Origin: Candidatus Peregrinibacteria bacterium
GTDB taxonomy: Bacteria; Patescibacteriota; Gracilibacteria; UBA1369; LOWO2-01-FULL-3
Assembly: GCA_026395515.1 (NCBI GenBank)
Contig: JAPLYN010000001.1
Location: 62,001-126,000, forward strand
Direction of reading: 5' to 3'
DNA length: 64,000 nucleotides
Shown piece by piece: positions 13,097-54,807 of the stretch. Under the pieces are notes generated by a model. That model did not search any database. It saw only the letters and a program-made list of their open reading frames with translations, and had not been told where the DNA came from. Position 1 is the stretch's first letter, and each line of letters starts with the position of its first letter. Position numbers and translations under genes: made by a program.

Positions 13097-13146
13097 ATTG
13101 TATTTGCCAATACATTTTAACTTTCCTCAAGTTATTCTTTGACGAA

Positions 13147-13175
13147 TTTAGAATTAATTTAAGAAAATTTATACT
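13147..13175 (+). promoter_or_regulatory. Promoter of tRNA-like RNA A (TTTAGA-N17-TATACT)
   Basis: -35 TTTAGA 13147-13152, 17-bp spacer, -10 TATACT 13170-13175. The predicted +1 (13181 or so) falls at the GGGG that opens the RNA, so the primary transcript may need little 5' trimming. From ACGAATTTAGAA to the end of the spacer it matches the promoter of RNA B with only about one difference. Confidence 0.75.
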
Positions 13176-13179
13176 CGAT

Positions 13180-13251
13180 GGGGCCGGTGGTGGTAACGAT
13201 GCCAGGATTGTCACCTAGGTGTCTGGGGTTCAACTCCCCACGGCTCCACCA
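13180..13251 (+). ncRNA. tRNA-like RNA A: alanine-type acceptor/T half, no D arm
   Basis: GGGGCCG 13180-13186 pairs CGGCTCC 13241-13247, with G3:T70 wobble, discriminator A 13248 and encoded CCA 13249-13251. The T arm is perfect: TGGGG 13224-13228, loop TTCAACT, CCCCA 13236-13240. G3:U70 is the main identity element for alanyl-tRNA synthetase. The lower half is not canonical. Residues 13187-13200 form no D stem, and the only hairpin is GCCAGG 13201-13206 with CCTAGGT 13214-13220 (bulged A), whose 7-nt loop is ATTGTCA. The total is 69 nt before CCA. It is a degenerate tRNA-Ala, a non-translational alanyl donor, or a pseudogene. The intact ends, promoter and terminator argue that it is expressed. 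Confidence 0.6.
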
Positions 13252-13258
13252 GATTAGC

Positions 13259-13289
13259 AAAAGCTCTCTAAATTGCTTAGAGAGCTTTT
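13259..13289 (+). terminator. Terminator of tRNA-like RNA A
   Basis: A perfect 13-bp stem, 13259-13271 with 13277-13289, has the 5-nt loop ATTGC. It ends in TTTTCTT and begins seven nt after the encoded CCA. Strong and clearly dedicated to this short transcript. Confidence 0.93.
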
Positions 13290-13311
13290 CTTACATGCCG
13301 ACAGTGATCTA

Positions 13312-13372
13312 ACGGCTCCACCAGCTCGGTTTTGAAAAACCAAGAAAAAATAAATTTGGATTGTCACCCAAA
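13312..13372 (+). repeat. Partial copies of RNA A segments downstream of its terminator
   Basis: 13312-13324 repeats the 3' end of RNA A exactly (13 of 13, including CTCCACCA). 13358-13368 repeats GGATTGTCACC exactly (copy of 13205-13215). In the second copy the loop is kept, but the stem is now TTTGG 13355-13359/CCAAA 13368-13372. These may be scars of duplication or of integration at the RNA gene. Confidence 0.6.
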
Positions 13373-13394
13373 CTAATTATATCAAATTAACAGC

Positions 13395-14177
13395 TTATTT
13401 CAAACAAATCACACCTCCCATCACTCCCATTTTTCCTTTTCCAGCACGAGAAGAAAAGAAGATATCATTTTCGCATACAGTACATCTGCGCATAATTTCA
13501 ATATTTTCAGAGGGCACTTCTTCTGCCACTAATTGATCAAAACTACATTGCCACAGGTCAACATGGCGACCATCTTCGCCTCCCAAATATTTCTGCATCC
13601 ACTCTGGCAATTCCTTTTCCGGCTCACTAAATTCCGCATGACAAGGTCCCAAAGATTGAGAAATTCCCACGAAAATATTTTCAGGAGAGCATCCAAATTC
13701 CTCCACCATTTTTCTCACACATTTTCCAATAATATTTTTTACATTTCCTCTCCATCCAGCATGCACCGCCGCAATTACTCGACGAACTGGATCAAAAAAT
13801 AAAACTCCCTGACAGTCCGCGAAACGCACAGAAAGAGCCAGTCCATTCACATTCGTAATAAATCCATCATAGTCGCCTTGTGGCTTATTCATGCCGTAAT
13901 TGCCACGGTCCACCTCTCCTTTTAAAATTAAAATATCATCTTTGTGAACTTGATTTGCCCTCACTAATTCTTCCGTCTTCACTCCCACCGCTTCACAAAA
14001 TCTTTTATAATTTTCTTCTAAATTTTCTTTGCTATCTTCCTCAAATTGTCCCAAGTTTAGGCTCGCCAAATACTCCTTTCCGGCCTCATCTCCACTCACT
14101 CCACCATTCCTCGTCGAAAGACCGTGGCGAATCACATCAGAAAACTTTTCGAAAATTTTAAACTTCAGGAAGTGCAT
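13395..14177 (-). CDS. pgeF: PgeF/YfiH-family purine nucleoside phosphorylase (multicopper-oxidase-like fold)
   Basis: A 260-aa protein of the YfiH/LACC1 family, once called polyphenol oxidase or laccase. Family members are now known to act on purine nucleosides (adenosine phosphorolysis and deamination) and to edit cell-wall precursors. Signatures are HGLSTRNGGVS, NQVHKDDIL, the ADC motif RFADCQGVLFFDP, the VHAGWRG histidine motif and GISQSLGPCHAEF. Its start overlaps nnrD by 20 bp, so the pair is co-translated. Next to ahcY/metK and purine genes, removal of adenosine is a sensible role, but this is inference. Confidence 0.88.
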   Translation of the reverse strand: MHFLKFKIFEKFSDVIRHGLSTRNGGVSGDEAGKEYLASLNLGQFEEDSKENLEENYKRFCEAVGVKTEELVRANQVHKDDILILKGEVDRGNYGMNKPQGDYDGFITNVNGLALSVRFADCQGVLFFDPVRRVIAAVHAGWRGNVKNIIGKCVRKMVEEFGCSPENIFVGISQSLGPCHAEFSEPEKELPEWMQKYLGGEDGRHVDLWQCSFDQLVAEEVPSENIEIMRRCTVCENDIFFSSRAGKGKMGVMGGVICLK

Positions 14178-19402: not shown

Positions 19403-20776
19403 ATGGGCAAATTTTTCATTCAAACTTACGGCTGTCAGATGAATTATTCTGATACAGAACGCATGGAGTCTTATCTCCAGGCACTCGGCTATGATAAAGC
19501 TCCGAGTTTTGAAGAGGCGGATTTGATTATGTTCAATACTTGCAGCATTCGTCAGAGCGCTGAGGATCGTGTCTACGGTCACATGCGTACAATCGAGCAA
19601 ATGCGTCGCCAGCACAAAAAGATCACTGTAGTAATTACTGGCTGTATGGTGAGAAAATCCAGTTCTCGTTATTCTTCAGAAAGAGATAAACTTTTCAATA
19701 CTACTCGTGAATTAGACATCGCGCTTCGCACTGAAGAATTGCCAAAACTTGCCATGCTTGCTCGTGAGCTCGACCCAGAAAGTAAAATTCCAGAAATCAA
19801 AGAAGAGTCCCTCGAAGATTATTTCAAAATTTCTCCAACTCATAGTTCTCATCAGTCCAAAGCTCAGGCTTTTGTGGCCATTTCCAATGGTTGCGATAAG
19901 TTTTGCACCTATTGCATCGTTCCATATAGCCGCGGTCGTGAGAAGAGCCGTGACATCCAAGAAATTATTAAGGAGTGTACTCAGCTTGTGGAGAATGGCT
20001 GCAAGGAAATTACACTTATCGGTCAGACAGTGAATTCTTATGGTCTCAGCCAATACGACAAAGAGGAAAAAACTTTTGAATTTCTCGGAGAAAAAGAGCC
20101 ATTCATCTATTTGTTAGAAGAAATTGATAAGCTTCACGCCAAAGGTCTCGTGCGTCTCAGCTTCACTTCTTCTCATCCTAAGGATATGTCCGATCAGCTC
20201 ATTGAGGCGATGGCGAACTTGAAGACAATAATGCCGTATTTACATCTTCCAGTTCAGGCAGGTGATAATCGCACTTTGAAGCGCATGAATCGTACCTACA
20301 CAGTAGAAAGTTATAGAAAAATTATAGAAAAACTCCGCAAATCAATTCCTGGAATTTCTATTTCTACAGATATAATTGTGGGTTTTTGTGGTGAAACCGA
20401 TGAGGAATTTGAAAACACTTACAAATTCTTTGATGAAATGGATTTTGAACACGGTTACATTTCTCAATATTCAGAAAGAACCGGAACAACCGCTGCCAGA
20501 TTCATAAAAGACGACATCTCTGAAGACGTAAAACAAGAGCGCTGGAACAAATTAAACGACAATCTCCTCCGCCAGAAATCCAAAAAAGCTCACGAAAGAT
20601 TCCTCGGCAAAACCCTCCAAGTTTTAGTAGAAAGCCAAGAAGGCAAAAAGTGCCTCGGTCGCAGCGAACATTTCAAAACCGTACAATTCTCATCCGGCAG
20701 AAAACTCCTCGGAGAAATAGTTCCGGTCCGCATCACCAAAGCAATGGAGTGGATTCTAGAAGGTGAGCTAGTCTAA
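19403..20776 (+). CDS. miaB: tRNA-2-methylthio-N6-dimethylallyladenosine synthase
   Basis: A 457-aa radical-SAM methylthiotransferase acting on A37 of tRNAs that read UNN codons. Order: N-terminal UPF0004 domain with the three auxiliary-cluster cysteines (YGCQMN, FNTCSIR, ITGCMV), radical SAM motif GCDKFCTYCIVPYSRG (about 163-178, CxxxCxxC), and a C-terminal TRAM domain (about 390-455). I start at the ATG giving MGKFFIQTYGCQMN. The 3' end overlaps alaS by 4 bp in convergent orientation. Confidence 0.96.
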   Translation: MGKFFIQTYGCQMNYSDTERMESYLQALGYDKAPSFEEADLIMFNTCSIRQSAEDRVYGHMRTIEQMRRQHKKITVVITGCMVRKSSSRYSSERDKLFNTTRELDIALRTEELPKLAMLARELDPESKIPEIKEESLEDYFKISPTHSSHQSKAQAFVAISNGCDKFCTYCIVPYSRGREKSRDIQEIIKECTQLVENGCKEITLIGQTVNSYGLSQYDKEEKTFEFLGEKEPFIYLLEEIDKLHAKGLVRLSFTSSHPKDMSDQLIEAMANLKTIMPYLHLPVQAGDNRTLKRMNRTYTVESYRKIIEKLRKSIPGISISTDIIVGFCGETDEEFENTYKFFDEMDFEHGYISQYSERTGTTAARFIKDDISEDVKQERWNKLNDNLLRQKSKKAHERFLGKTLQVLVESQEGKKCLGRSEHFKTVQFSSGRKLLGEIVPVRITKAMEWILEGELV

Positions 20777-22626
20777 ACTTTCGCATTCGCACCCACTGTC
20801 GCCTTGATTCTTCTGATTCCACTTGAACAAGCTTCTTCTTTTAGTAATTTGAAGCTGCCAAGTTCGCTAGTATTTTTGACGTGTGGGCCACCGCAAATTT
20901 CCATGCTGAATAGTGTACCTTTTTCTGGTTCACCCATTGTGTACACTTTTACCACGTCGCCATATTTTGACTCAAATAAGCCAATAGCGCCCTTTTCTTT
21001 TGCCTCAGCCACACTCATTTCTGCATAGTTTACCGGCAAGGCTGCACGAATTTGATCATTCACAATTCCTTCTACTTTTATCTTTTCCTCATCAGTCATT
21101 TTTGTCGAATGAGAGAAATCAAAACGCAATCTTTCAGCAGTAATATTTGATCCTCTTTGCTCTACATGATCACCTAAAACAGTTCTCAAAGCTTTATGCA
21201 AAAGGTGAGTAGCTGTATGCAATCTTGTCACTTCTTCACTATGGTCAGAAAGACCTCCAGCAAACTTTTTCTCAGCTCCAGCGCGGGATAATTCCTGATG
21301 TTTTTTGAAATTATCTTCGAAATTTTTGATCAACATTGCCTTTTCAGCCGCATCACGAATCCAACCAGCCTCCTGTAATTCTTCAATTGTCATCTCTATA
21401 GGGAAGCCATAAGTAGCAAACATTTCAAAACAGAAATCTTCACCTAGGGCACTTGTGCCCTGTTCCTTTTTTTCTATTATCTTTTCCATTGCACGATGAA
21501 TCATTGCCAAACCTTTATCCAAAGTATGACCAAATTGAATTTCTTCTTTGCTCATCTCTTCGTAAATTCTTTCTGCATTCAATTCTAATTCTTTATAATA
21601 GTCACCATAATTTTTCACGATAATTCCGGCAATTTTTCTTGCAAATTCACCTGCAATTCCGAGTTTCTTTGCATTTCTAATCGCTCTACGAATAAGTCTG
21701 CGTAGAATATATCCTTGATCTGTATTTGAAGGAGTTACAGCACTTGGATCACCCAAAATAAATGTAGCTGCTCTCAAATGATCGGCAATAATTTTTTCAG
21801 AAACCATTTTTGATTCATCTACTTCACCGTATCCTGCCAATGTCCTAATTTCCGCAATTACATCAACAAATAATTCAGTCTCAAAAGGTGAATTCAAACC
21901 ATTCATAATTCCCAAAACTCTTTCCAATCCCATTCCTGTATCCACATTTTGCTGTTTCAAAGGTGCGAAACTGCCATCTTCCTGTTTGTTGTACTGCATG
22001 AACACATCATTCCAAATCTCCACCCATCTCTTGTCTGATGGATCGTGTTTTTCTGGTGCTGGCTCAGTCCCTGTCCAATAAAACATTTCTGTATCTGGAC
22101 CGCATGGACCAGTTTTTCCGGCAGGTCCCCACCAGTTATCTTTTTTAGGTAAGAATGAAATACGATCAGCACTTACTCCAAGACTTCTCCAAATTCCAAA
22201 AGATTCCTCATCCTTCGGAGCATCAGCATCTCCAGCAAAACAAGTGAAAGCCAATTTGCTCAAAGGCAAACCAAGCCCACCATCGCTCGAAGTCAAAAAT
22301 TCAAAACTCATCTTAATAGCACCTTCTTTGAAATAATCTCCCAAAGACCAGTTACCCAACATTTCAAAAAAGCTCAAATGACTCTTGTCTCCTACTTCCT
22401 CAATATCATCAGTACGAATACACTTCTGCACATCTGTTAAACGGCTACCTGATGGATGCTTTTCACCCATAAGAAATGGCACCAAAGGATGCATTCCTGC
22501 AGTCGTAAATAAAACAGTAGGATCATTTTCCGGAATTAAAGAAGAACCACGAATTTCTTTATGTCCATTCTTTTTTACAAAAAAATCTATAAATAAATGG
22601 CGGAGTTCATTAGCTGTCATTTTCAT
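20773..22626 (-). CDS. alaS: Alanyl-tRNA synthetase, short form lacking C-Ala domain
   Basis: About 617 aa. It charges tRNA-Ala by recognising G3:U70. Visible order: class II catalytic core (1-250, motif GSSLIPENDPTVLFTTAGMHPLVPF), tRNA-recognition helical domain (to ~455), and editing domain with zinc ligands HTATH and CGGPH. It ends at SSGIRRIKATVG just after the editing domain. The usual ~870-aa enzyme continues with a DHHA1/C-Ala region that contacts the tRNA elbow, and this is missing. I choose ATG at 22626 (MKMTANELRHLF) over an upstream TTG. The two tRNA-like RNAs here with alanine acceptors but odd D arms make the missing elbow-binding domain notable. Confidence 0.95.
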   Translation of the reverse strand: MKMTANELRHLFIDFFVKKNGHKEIRGSSLIPENDPTVLFTTAGMHPLVPFLMGEKHPSGSRLTDVQKCIRTDDIEEVGDKSHLSFFEMLGNWSLGDYFKEGAIKMSFEFLTSSDGGLGLPLSKLAFTCFAGDADAPKDEESFGIWRSLGVSADRISFLPKKDNWWGPAGKTGPCGPDTEMFYWTGTEPAPEKHDPSDKRWVEIWNDVFMQYNKQEDGSFAPLKQQNVDTGMGLERVLGIMNGLNSPFETELFVDVIAEIRTLAGYGEVDESKMVSEKIIADHLRAATFILGDPSAVTPSNTDQGYILRRLIRRAIRNAKKLGIAGEFARKIAGIIVKNYGDYYKELELNAERIYEEMSKEEIQFGHTLDKGLAMIHRAMEKIIEKKEQGTSALGEDFCFEMFATYGFPIEMTIEELQEAGWIRDAAEKAMLIKNFEDNFKKHQELSRAGAEKKFAGGLSDHSEEVTRLHTATHLLHKALRTVLGDHVEQRGSNITAERLRFDFSHSTKMTDEEKIKVEGIVNDQIRAALPVNYAEMSVAEAKEKGAIGLFESKYGDVVKVYTMGEPEKGTLFSMEICGGPHVKNTSELGSFKLLKEEACSSGIRRIKATVGANAKV

Positions 22627-22698
22627 ATTTTTCAGATTCAAAAAGTATCAAGTGGGCTTATTCTACGTAAAAAAACTTCAGGATACAAGCTTTTGGCC

Positions 22699-37475: not shown

Positions 37476-37550
37476 TGGAGCCGGAGACGAGATTCGAACT
37501 CGTGGCTTGCTGTTTACGAAACAGCTACTCTACCCCTGAGTTACACCGGC
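37476..37550 (-). tRNA. tRNA-Thr(CGT)
   Basis: On the minus strand: acceptor GCCGGTG with CTCCGGC (one T:T mismatch at pair 6-67), D arm ACTC-AGGGGTA-GAGT, anticodon arm GCTGT-TTCGTAA-ACAGC (anticodon CGT), T arm ACGAG-TTCGAAT-CTCGT, discriminator T, CCA encoded. It reads ACG. It follows dinB by 41 nt and may share its transcript. Confidence 0.94.
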
Positions 37551-54502: not shown

Positions 54503-54587
54503 AGAAAAATGTTAATGGACAGATTATATAACAAGTGGCGAGTAAATAAAATATTTTTAACCTCCATGCAAGTCTATCGCCTACGAA

Positions 54588-54616
54588 TTTAGAAATAATT
54601 TAAGAAAATTTTAACT
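54588..54616 (+). promoter_or_regulatory. Promoter of tRNA-like RNA B (TTTAGA-N17-TTAACT)
   Basis: -35 TTTAGA 54588-54593, 17-bp spacer, -10 TTAACT 54611-54616, predicted +1 near 54623. The run from ACGAATTTAGAA through the spacer differs from the RNA A promoter at about one base. The -10 is weaker, and about 28 nt lie between +1 and the RNA. Confidence 0.65.
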
Positions 54617-54650
54617 TTGGTTGTCACAATGTTTACGTGCTTAGCATTCT

Positions 54651-54721
54651 GGGGCGGGGATTGGATCCAAGGCAGCGTTAAGACCTGCCGATAGGGGGTT
54701 CGATTCCTCTCCGCTCCACCA
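54651..54721 (+). ncRNA. tRNA-like RNA B: alanine-type acceptor/T half, reduced lower half
   Basis: GGGGCGG 54651-54657 pairs CCGCTCC 54711-54717 with G3:T70 wobble, discriminator A 54718, CCA 54719-54721. T arm GGGGG 54694-54698, loop TTCGATT, CCTCT 54706-54710. A 5-bp arm GGCAG 54671-54675/CTGCC 54685-54689 has a 9-nt loop (CGTTAAGAC), which is 2 nt too long for an anticodon loop. In the D position is a 10-bp palindrome TTGGATCCAA (54661-54670) with no normal D loop. 54658-54672 matches 13205-13219 of RNA A at 11 of 15 positions. Length before CCA is 68 nt. It lies between two purP paralogs, on the other strand. Confidence 0.6.
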
Positions 54722-54731
54722 AGTTAAGCAC

Positions 54732-54766
54732 AAAAGAGGCCTCTGAAAAACTCAGAAGCCTCTTTT
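54732..54766 (+). terminator. Terminator of tRNA-like RNA B
   Basis: A 15-bp stem, 54732-54746 with 54752-54766, one mismatch, 5-nt loop, ending in TTTT. It begins 11 nt after the CCA. The architecture is the same as for RNA A. Confidence 0.92.
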
Positions 54767-54769
54767 AAC

Positions 54770-54807
54770 TGGGAATTGTACCCAGGCAGTGTTAAGACCT
54801 ACTCATA
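54770..54807 (+). repeat. Degenerate copy of the RNA B core downstream of its terminator
   Basis: Aligned without gaps, 54770-54807 matches RNA B 54656-54693 at about 28 of 38 positions, including GGCAG-GTTAAGACCT. Within it CTGGG 54769-54773 pairs CCCAG 54781-54785 with loop AATTGTA, similar to the ATTGTCA loop of RNA A. No acceptor or T arm accompanies it. Confidence 0.6.

Follow-up and report, generated by a model that had tools for sequence, protein, structure and literature searches.

A 64,000-nucleotide stretch of a Candidatus Peregrinibacteria genome, referred to here as the window, carries a 72-nt RNA gene (RNA1 copy A) that joins the acceptor end of an alanine tRNA to an interior unlike that of ordinary tRNAs, and this raises the question of what such an RNA would do. 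A preliminary description of the locus had considered a non-translational alanine donor, a new tRNA type and, as the main rival, a degenerate pseudogene. The perfect acceptor and T arms, the G3:U70 pair, A73 and the encoded CCA that it reported were confirmed (Table 1). The D stem that it had found absent is tiny instead, since copy A keeps 2 bp and its homologues form a hairpin of 3-4 bp with GG in the loop. The bulged hairpin with loop ATTGTCA is also present, but rather than a non-tRNA body it is the anticodon arm seen throughout the family. ARAGORN made no call on copy A, which scored below the gathering score of the Rfam tRNA model; copies A to E of this genome were likewise not called as canonical tRNAs by the tRNA covariance model or ARAGORN, while the canonical tRNAs of the same genome were called. 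With the tmRNA model (RF00023) the tRNA-like RNAs reached 23.5-39.3 bits, the cut-off being 47. Since the acceptor and T arm are complete, a group I intron or a split tRNA was rejected. An ordinary tRNA with an intron, named earlier as a fold that would count against the idea, likewise failed to refute it. The minimum free energy fold of the 72 nt alone was not significant (z -1.2); the structure given for RNA1 is based on covariation.

The genome to which the window belongs (G000) comprises 1.30 Mb in 6 contigs, with about 40 ordinary tRNAs and a normal tmRNA (C4:188041-188460). Weak matches to the tmRNA model were the first pointer to further RNA1 copies in it. We scanned the whole genome for any T arm with a matching acceptor, G3:U70 not being required, and obtained the ordinary tRNAs, the tmRNA, a tRNA-Lys fragment, a few chance matches and five small non-canonical tRNA-like RNAs, all five of which had G3:U70. 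A covariance model built from copies C, D and E (R1) gave strong matches in many genomes of the order. It was later replaced by model R2, which scored the five G000 copies at 49.7-75 bits as against 44.2 bits for canonical tRNA-Ala genes. At an E-value of 5e-7, R2 matched in 48 of the 89 genomes of the order, with up to seven matches per genome, although a few matches of ~76 nt near 50 bits in this count may be tRNA-Ala. At 1e-7 it matched in 29 of 380 genomes spread over the Patescibacteria phylum, other classes included, which is an undercount, as no more than 13 candidates in each genome were scored in this first look. The model searches covered Patescibacteria genomes, and the relatives in named records were Candidatus Peregrinibacteria/Peribacteria MAGs. 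The covariance search of related genomes that had been suggested as a check thus recovered a family across the order, and the locus persists in relatives instead of being absent or decayed there. With five copies in one genome and a family across the order, RNA1 is beyond chance. Two RNA1 patterns had no match in viral contigs, and the three matches of a third pattern were ordinary tRNA-Tyr genes (ARAGORN). When nine further loci were compared with Rfam, neither RNA1 nor RNA2 matched a family. Literature searches on tRNA-like RNA in Peregrinibacteria/Patescibacteria, with most subscription journals and preprints outside their coverage, returned no description.

We extracted 86 distinct RNA1 cores from the fetched loci with a filter that required G3:U70. 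The family fold consists of an acceptor, a mini D arm, an elongated anticodon arm and a T arm, with no variable loop; in the alignments the canonical D arm, positions 8-9 and the variable loop are missing, and the interior measures 34-39 nt. Covariation was modelled on 37 aligned members with an acceptor of 7 bp, a D stem of 3 bp, an anticodon arm of 6 bp, a bulge and 3 bp, and a T stem of 5 bp. In this alignment 90.5% of the cells were paired, with 242 double changes, and the covariation score was 0.669; shuffling lowered it to 0.20, and no slid structure exceeded 0.14. The only pairs that never varied in these members were G2:C71, G3:U70 (37/37) and the last T-stem pair. In the full set, G2:C71, G3:U70 and A73 were invariant in 86/86, and acceptor pairs 4-7 varied with compensating changes. 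The 86/86 for G3:U70 results partly from the extraction filter. Before filtering, however, nearly all loci of the family already carried the pair, the exception being L140, which lacks it and has a broken acceptor. The acceptor, T arm and CC were found in all 86 members and CCA in 66, the loop being 7 or 8 nt long. G3:U70 is an established identity element for alanyl-tRNA synthetase (AlaRS). Of all the features of the family, alanine identity is the one under the strictest conservation, which agrees with the identity originally claimed for copy A. The suggestion of a new tRNA-like type is likewise supported.

That this RNA "cannot decode", as had been stated, found no support, since anticodon-loop features were kept in 86/86. 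Every member holds R-N-[CGU]-A in the loop, and two pyrimidines precede it in 85. The triplets were GUC (33), GAC (11), GAU (10), GAG (7) and ACG (5) and, more rarely, AUC and AAG (4 each), GCG, ACC and AGC (3 each) and GGC, AAC and GCC (1 each). They fit mostly Asp (GAY), and also Val, Ile, Leu, Arg and Gly; Ala-type triplets (AGC, GGC) occurred in 4 members. An extra pyrimidine stands before R-N-N-A in most loops, giving an 8-nt loop, C33 or, with U33 as the starting point of the count, C37. This makes the anticodon frame ambiguous, and RNA1 may decode poorly or with frameshifts. Read by geometry, the 7-nt loop of copy A would present UGU with C37, and read by the family motif it would present GUC with A37. 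Canonical tRNAs for the amino acids of the loop triplets are present in G000, so RNA1 fills no decoding gap, which favours a tightly controlled product that is harmful or conditional. A 76-nt tRNA with an Ala acceptor, a normal D arm and an RNA1-like loop (GCTCGACACC) was observed in a related genome (L227, G033:C7:18914-18988, minus strand) with a 14-nt complementary segment upstream (CGACACCTAGAAGG); it may be an intermediate form linking tRNA-Ala with the RNA1 family.

Beside almost every RNA1 lies a second, predicted small RNA gene, RNA2, which the preliminary description had missed. It usually has a TATAAT box of its own, and its first bases can pair with the anticodon loop and stem of RNA1. 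In all G000 copies the loop region is repeated 3' of the terminator, and a TATAAT-like box precedes the repeat directly on the opposite strand, so that the repeat looks like a convergent RNA gene with a 5' end complementary to the loop. RNA2 was detected at a score of at least 9 in 81 of the 86 members (56 convergent, 11 tandem and 14 divergent) and was not found in the other five; the one feature constant across orientations was RNA1-RNA2 complementarity. In families f10/f14 and in other Patescibacteria, RNA2 lies behind RNA1 on the same strand with its own promoter, and the DNA repeat is inverted; the tandem RNA2 of L237, from another Patescibacteria group, has the promoter TTGACA-17-TATACT. 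In f11 and some others RNA2 is located 65-140 nt upstream on the opposite strand.

The mean duplex energy of cognate pairs was -39.9 kcal/mol as compared to -22.0 for non-cognate pairs, and of the 81 partners compared, the cognate RNA2 came first for 65 RNAs and within the top three for 76. A perfect TATAAT, in most cases 5-7 nt ahead of the point where pairing begins, was present in 39 of 73 RNA2 promoters, as against 2.5% of shuffled sequences. A first statistic on downstream sequence only had given a score of at least 10 in 67 of 88 cases versus 3.8% of non-cognate pairs. As a control, 8 of 40 ordinary G000 tRNAs, two of them adjacent Met tRNAs, reached a score of at least 9; since ordinary tRNAs reach 9 by chance, copies D and E, whose weak RNA2 has a 9-nt match each, are no proof alone. 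The RNA2 of copy A and of its relatives (L150, L187, L193 and L201/L216) has an additional match to the 3' strand of the acceptor with CCA, which explains the 13-bp repeat ACGGCTCCACCAG at 13312-13324. On sequence grounds, both RNA1-RNA2 pairing and the alanine identity are well supported. An inverted match of the interior (score 11.5) was also seen in the 300 nt downstream of the canonical tRNA-Thr(CGU) at window 37476-37550 (minus strand), where it is probably due to chance or a terminator.

Copy A had been described as preceded by a conserved promoter. Its AT-rich block is present, but the block is a general promoter type occurring at ~30 places in G000, mostly away from RNA1 genes, and was for that reason rejected as RNA1-specific. 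Moreover, the original -10 is deleted: relative to the syntenic ortholog (L150 in G033), copy A has lost 26 bp with the extended -10 and leader at 13171/13172. As a result copy A may be weakened, or the TATACT at the junction may drive it instead. The G000 promoter type, TTTAGAAnnAATTTAAGAAAATTT[TAACTTTG/AATGTTTG]nnTGnTAnnnT (e.g. window 13145-13170 and 54586-54612), is an unusual combination of an AT-tract and an extended -10, and many examples apparently lie upstream of protein genes. The promoter of RNA2 A matched 11 of 12 consensus bases and was the best promoter match of the region. As for the 13-bp terminator reported behind copy A, an inverted repeat does lie there directly, but it is shared with the convergent RNA2 A; its 13-bp arms have an A-run on one side and a T-run on the other, and an automatic terminator scan did not flag it. 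Copies C, D and E have leader/trailer helices equivalent to that of copy B, with the bases changed.

Table 1. Features of the RNA1/RNA2 loci in the window (window positions unless a G000 contig is named).
Feature	Position	Strand	Basis or detail
RNA1 copy A, alanine-identity tRNA-like RNA	13180..13251	+	R2 70.4 bits; sequence reading
Copy A acceptor, 7 bp	13180-13186/13241-13247	+	GGGGCCG/CGGCTCC
Copy A G3:U70	13182:13245	+	
Copy A A73	13248	+	
Copy A encoded CCA	13249-13251	+	
Copy A mini D arm	13187-13197	+	2 bp kept (GT...AC)
Copy A anticodon arm	13198-13223	+	6 bp, bulged A 13217, 3 bp, loop 13207-13213
Copy A T arm, perfect	13224-13240	+	TGGGG-TTCAACT-CCCCA
Copy A anticodon-loop segment	13205..13215	+	GGATTGTCACC, 11 bp complementary to RNA2 A 5' end
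RNA1 A promoter region	13145..13175	+	AT-rich block (TTTAGAATTAATTTAAGAAAATTT) and TATACT (13170-13175)
Terminator-like hairpin common to RNA1 A and RNA2 A	13259..13289	.	Inverted repeat between both genes, arms 13259-13271/13277-13289
RNA2 A, predicted convergent antisense RNA	13256..13370	-	~115 nt; 5' start probably near 13369-13370
RNA2 A 5' segment	13358..13368	-	Complementary to RNA1 A anticodon loop
RNA2 A acceptor segment	13312..13324	-	CTGGTGGAGCCGT, 13 bp complementary to RNA1 A acceptor 3' strand and CCA
RNA2 A promoter	13376..13403	-	Promoter scan; TTGAAA-16-TATAAT, TG before -10 (extended)
AlaRS, 622 aa, presumed RNA1-charging enzyme	20773..22641	-	PF01411, PF07973
RNA1 B promoter	54586..54630	+	AT-rich block and extended -10 (TGTCACAAT)
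RNA1 B 5' leader arm	54637..54643	+	GTGCTTA, pairs with trailer 54725-54731 (TAAGCAC)
RNA1 copy B	54651..54721	+	R2 49.7 bits
RNA2 B, predicted convergent antisense RNA	54724..54801	-	CCCAGGCAGTGTTAAGACCT (54781-54800) matches RNA1 B
RNA2 B -10	54815-54807	-	TGCTAAAAT
RNA1 copy C	G000 C4:207566		
RNA1 copy D	G000 C6:571001		
RNA1 copy E	G000 C1:41478	-	

Copy A and its counterpart on G033:C2 are syntenic orthologs with flanking proteins 92-99% identical and both RNA1 and RNA2 kept. The outer anticodon stem reads GATGCC versus GACACC in the two orthologs, each of which pairs with GGTGTC. At the B locus (L216), G033 and the window genome have flanking proteins that are 93-99.7% identical, yet their RNA1 copies do not share the same acceptor, anticodon loop and stems, suggesting very fast change or replacement by gene conversion. 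By these sequence comparisons the RNA1 loci are stable and the RNAs fast-changing. The locus DNA had no match among plasmids and phages, nor did its surroundings reveal a protein partner or a mobile-element context of the kind expected for an addiction module. Elsewhere in G000, an intact tRNA-Lys(TTT) (C1:54627-54702) has an identical 3'-half fragment (~C1:41677-41730) on the same strand, 13 kb apart; the pair (C1:41677-54702) looks like an integrated element with att sites, and copy E lies ~130 bp outside the fragment.

We propose that RNA1 and RNA2 constitute an antisense-controlled, alanine-charged missense tRNA that works as an RNA-only toxin-antitoxin-like switch, a reading for which we see the chances as evenly balanced. 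Both RNAs would be transcribed, RNA2 from its separate promoter boxes. AlaRS would charge RNA1 with alanine through G3:U70, and the anticodon-like loop would fit the codons of other amino acids (mostly Asp GAY; Val, Ile, Leu, Arg and Gly). The long anticodon arm (~9-10 layers) may compensate for the missing D-anticodon stack, and because it takes the place of that stack, an L shape reaching the decoding centre is plausible. RNA2 is predicted to have a mostly single-stranded 5' tail, a D-arm segment and an acceptor-CCA segment at some loci, and a terminator hairpin at its end. The tail would meet the anticodon loop first and the anticodon stem would be invaded next; the resulting duplex would repress RNA1 by blocking charging and decoding, and could be marked for RNase III. 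A shortage of RNA2 (transcription arrest, stress or infection) would free RNA1, which would put alanine at wrong codons and have a toxic effect by slowing or poisoning translation. Members with an 8-nt loop could act as frameshifting rather than missense tRNAs. Several observations weigh against this reading: the extra pyrimidine in most loops, the failure to find a protein partner or mobile-element context, the weak RNA2 of copies D and E and its absence from five members, and the loss of the original -10 in copy A. More tentatively, and with somewhat less confidence than we would need to bet on it, we suggest that this is a new class of genetic module in Patescibacteria, in which programmed missense tRNAs that place alanine at codons for Asp, Val, Ile, Leu, Arg or Gly are silenced by dedicated antisense RNAs, with several orthogonal pairs per genome and a use in toxin-antitoxin function, anti-phage defence or stress mistranslation.

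The AlaRS encoded in the window, with a MiaB-like gene directly behind it, matched the catalytic and SAD (editing) domains and ends after SAD; no C-terminal DHHA1/C-Ala domain was matched in Pfam. AlaRS enzymes without C-Ala, from Tupanvirus and A. aeolicus, are able to charge acceptor-stem substrates (PMC10036535), so an enzyme without a detectable C-Ala fits charging led by the acceptor stem. The window enzyme resembles the Tupanvirus mini-AlaRS in this lack and differs from it in retaining the SAD editing domain.

Several known systems share parts of this design. Type I (hok/Sok-like) and plasmid copy-control antisense RNAs meet a target loop with an unstructured 5' tail and then end in a terminator hairpin. 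RNA2 has the same plan, but their target is the mRNA of a toxic peptide or replication protein, whereas that of RNA2 is a tRNA-like RNA. A second complementary RNA gene with its own promoter, the mark of RNA-only toxin-antitoxin or antisense systems, accompanies RNA1 at those 81 loci, with the TATAAT enrichment given above. The tRNA-like domain of tmRNA shares with RNA1 the alanine identity with G3:U70, the T arm and the reduced D region; RNA1, however, has a closed anticodon arm and no mRNA-like domain or tag, and the tmRNA of G000 is separate. mascRNA and menRNA are known from the 3' ends of lncRNAs (MALAT1, MEN beta), and we know of no antisense partner for them. They too are small and tRNA-like with a weak D arm and the GGUGGUGG motif, but copy A scored 34.9 bits with their model (RF01684), under the gathering cut-off of 42.5. 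Natural allo-tRNAs combine an acceptor identity (Ser, some Ala) with diverse mismatched anticodons such as GCG, GUC and UAU; some cannot serve translation in E. coli, and links to toxin-antitoxin systems have been suspected (Mukai et al. 2017; review PMC7609411). RNA1 is like them in joining Ala identity to triplets mostly for Asp, Val, Ile, Leu and Arg. However, their acceptor/T geometry is 8/4 or 9/3, whereas that of the RNA1 family model is 7/5, with covariation. RNA1 is also set apart by its mini D arm, by the length and bulge of its anticodon arm and by the lack of a variable loop. In addition it has a dedicated predicted antisense RNA; the word antisense has 0 occurrences in the review (PMC7609411). 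In CreTA (type VIII), CreT sequesters rare tRNAs and CreA acts via CRISPR Cascade on DNA (PMC8501985). There too a small RNA disturbs tRNA function and is silenced with the help of a second one, but here the would-be toxin RNA1 is itself tRNA-like and its predicted partner RNA2 pairs with it directly.

The same complementarity could serve an antisense-controlled regulatory RNA, in which the RNA1 loop acts on mRNAs, or RNA1 is a sponge for AlaRS, EF-Tu or stalled ribosomes, with RNA2 tuning it and no missense decoding. RNA1-RNA2 complementarity is indeed the most regular feature, and the 5' tail and terminator of RNA2 resemble plasmid and type I antitoxin antisense RNAs such as pMV158 RNAII (PMC4485353). 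We nevertheless consider this unlikely, as the loops resemble anticodon loops and not arbitrary seeds. A non-translational donor, with charged RNA1 feeding a Fem/MurM-like ligase or other aminoacyl transferase and RNA2 setting the dose, agrees well with alanine identity as the strictest constraint; bacterial pseudo-tRNAs with extra-translational effects are also known, for instance Bacillus cereus tRNAOther (PMC3399842). It leaves unexplained, however, why 86/86 members conserve an anticodon-loop pattern in which the triplet varies, why a genome has several copies with different loops and why there is one loop-directed antisense RNA per copy. Since nearly every copy has such an antisense RNA, which a mere donor would not need, the donor role that had been suggested is unsupported as stated and to our mind quite improbable, and regulated missense decoding fits more facts.

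A DNA-level origin, with the repeat as a duplicated attachment or target site of a mobile element inserting beside or into tRNA-like genes, would account for the direct repeat of part of the RNA 3' of the gene in 56 loci and for the repeated 3' end of copy A; the 3'-half duplication of tRNA-Lys in G000, a typical att footprint, also speaks for it. Yet convergent and divergent loci show the repeat in direct orientation and tandem ones in inverted orientation. Only the complementarity of the two predicted transcripts is constant, a -10 box sits just before the repeat, and the ~100 bp between the repeats contain no gene. We therefore hold this origin to be very improbable. A guide-target DNA system, an integrase att duplication and integron-like sites were rejected because the repeat orientation changes and the RNA complementarity stays. 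A degenerate tRNA pseudogene, suggested by the missing normal D arm and variable loop, the lack of an ARAGORN or Rfam tRNA call and the promoter deletion in copy A, is hardly credible, being refuted for the family by strong covariation and phylum-wide distribution and contradicted by changes in the copy A orthologs that preserve the anticodon stem.

To our knowledge, no other tRNA-like RNA is under the control of its own antisense RNA. If expressed as predicted, RNA1 would be the first, and it is carried by many bacteria of a poorly understood group with reduced genomes. If the missense reading is true, the system would provide a clear test of whether cells purposely keep and switch on missense tRNAs, and would add an RNA-only toxin-antitoxin design acting through alanyl-tRNA synthetase. 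Even the weaker reading, that of a structured RNA family which is widespread but unannotated and comes with paired antisense genes, would still mean a new family of the Rfam type and would caution annotators that tRNA finders overlook it.
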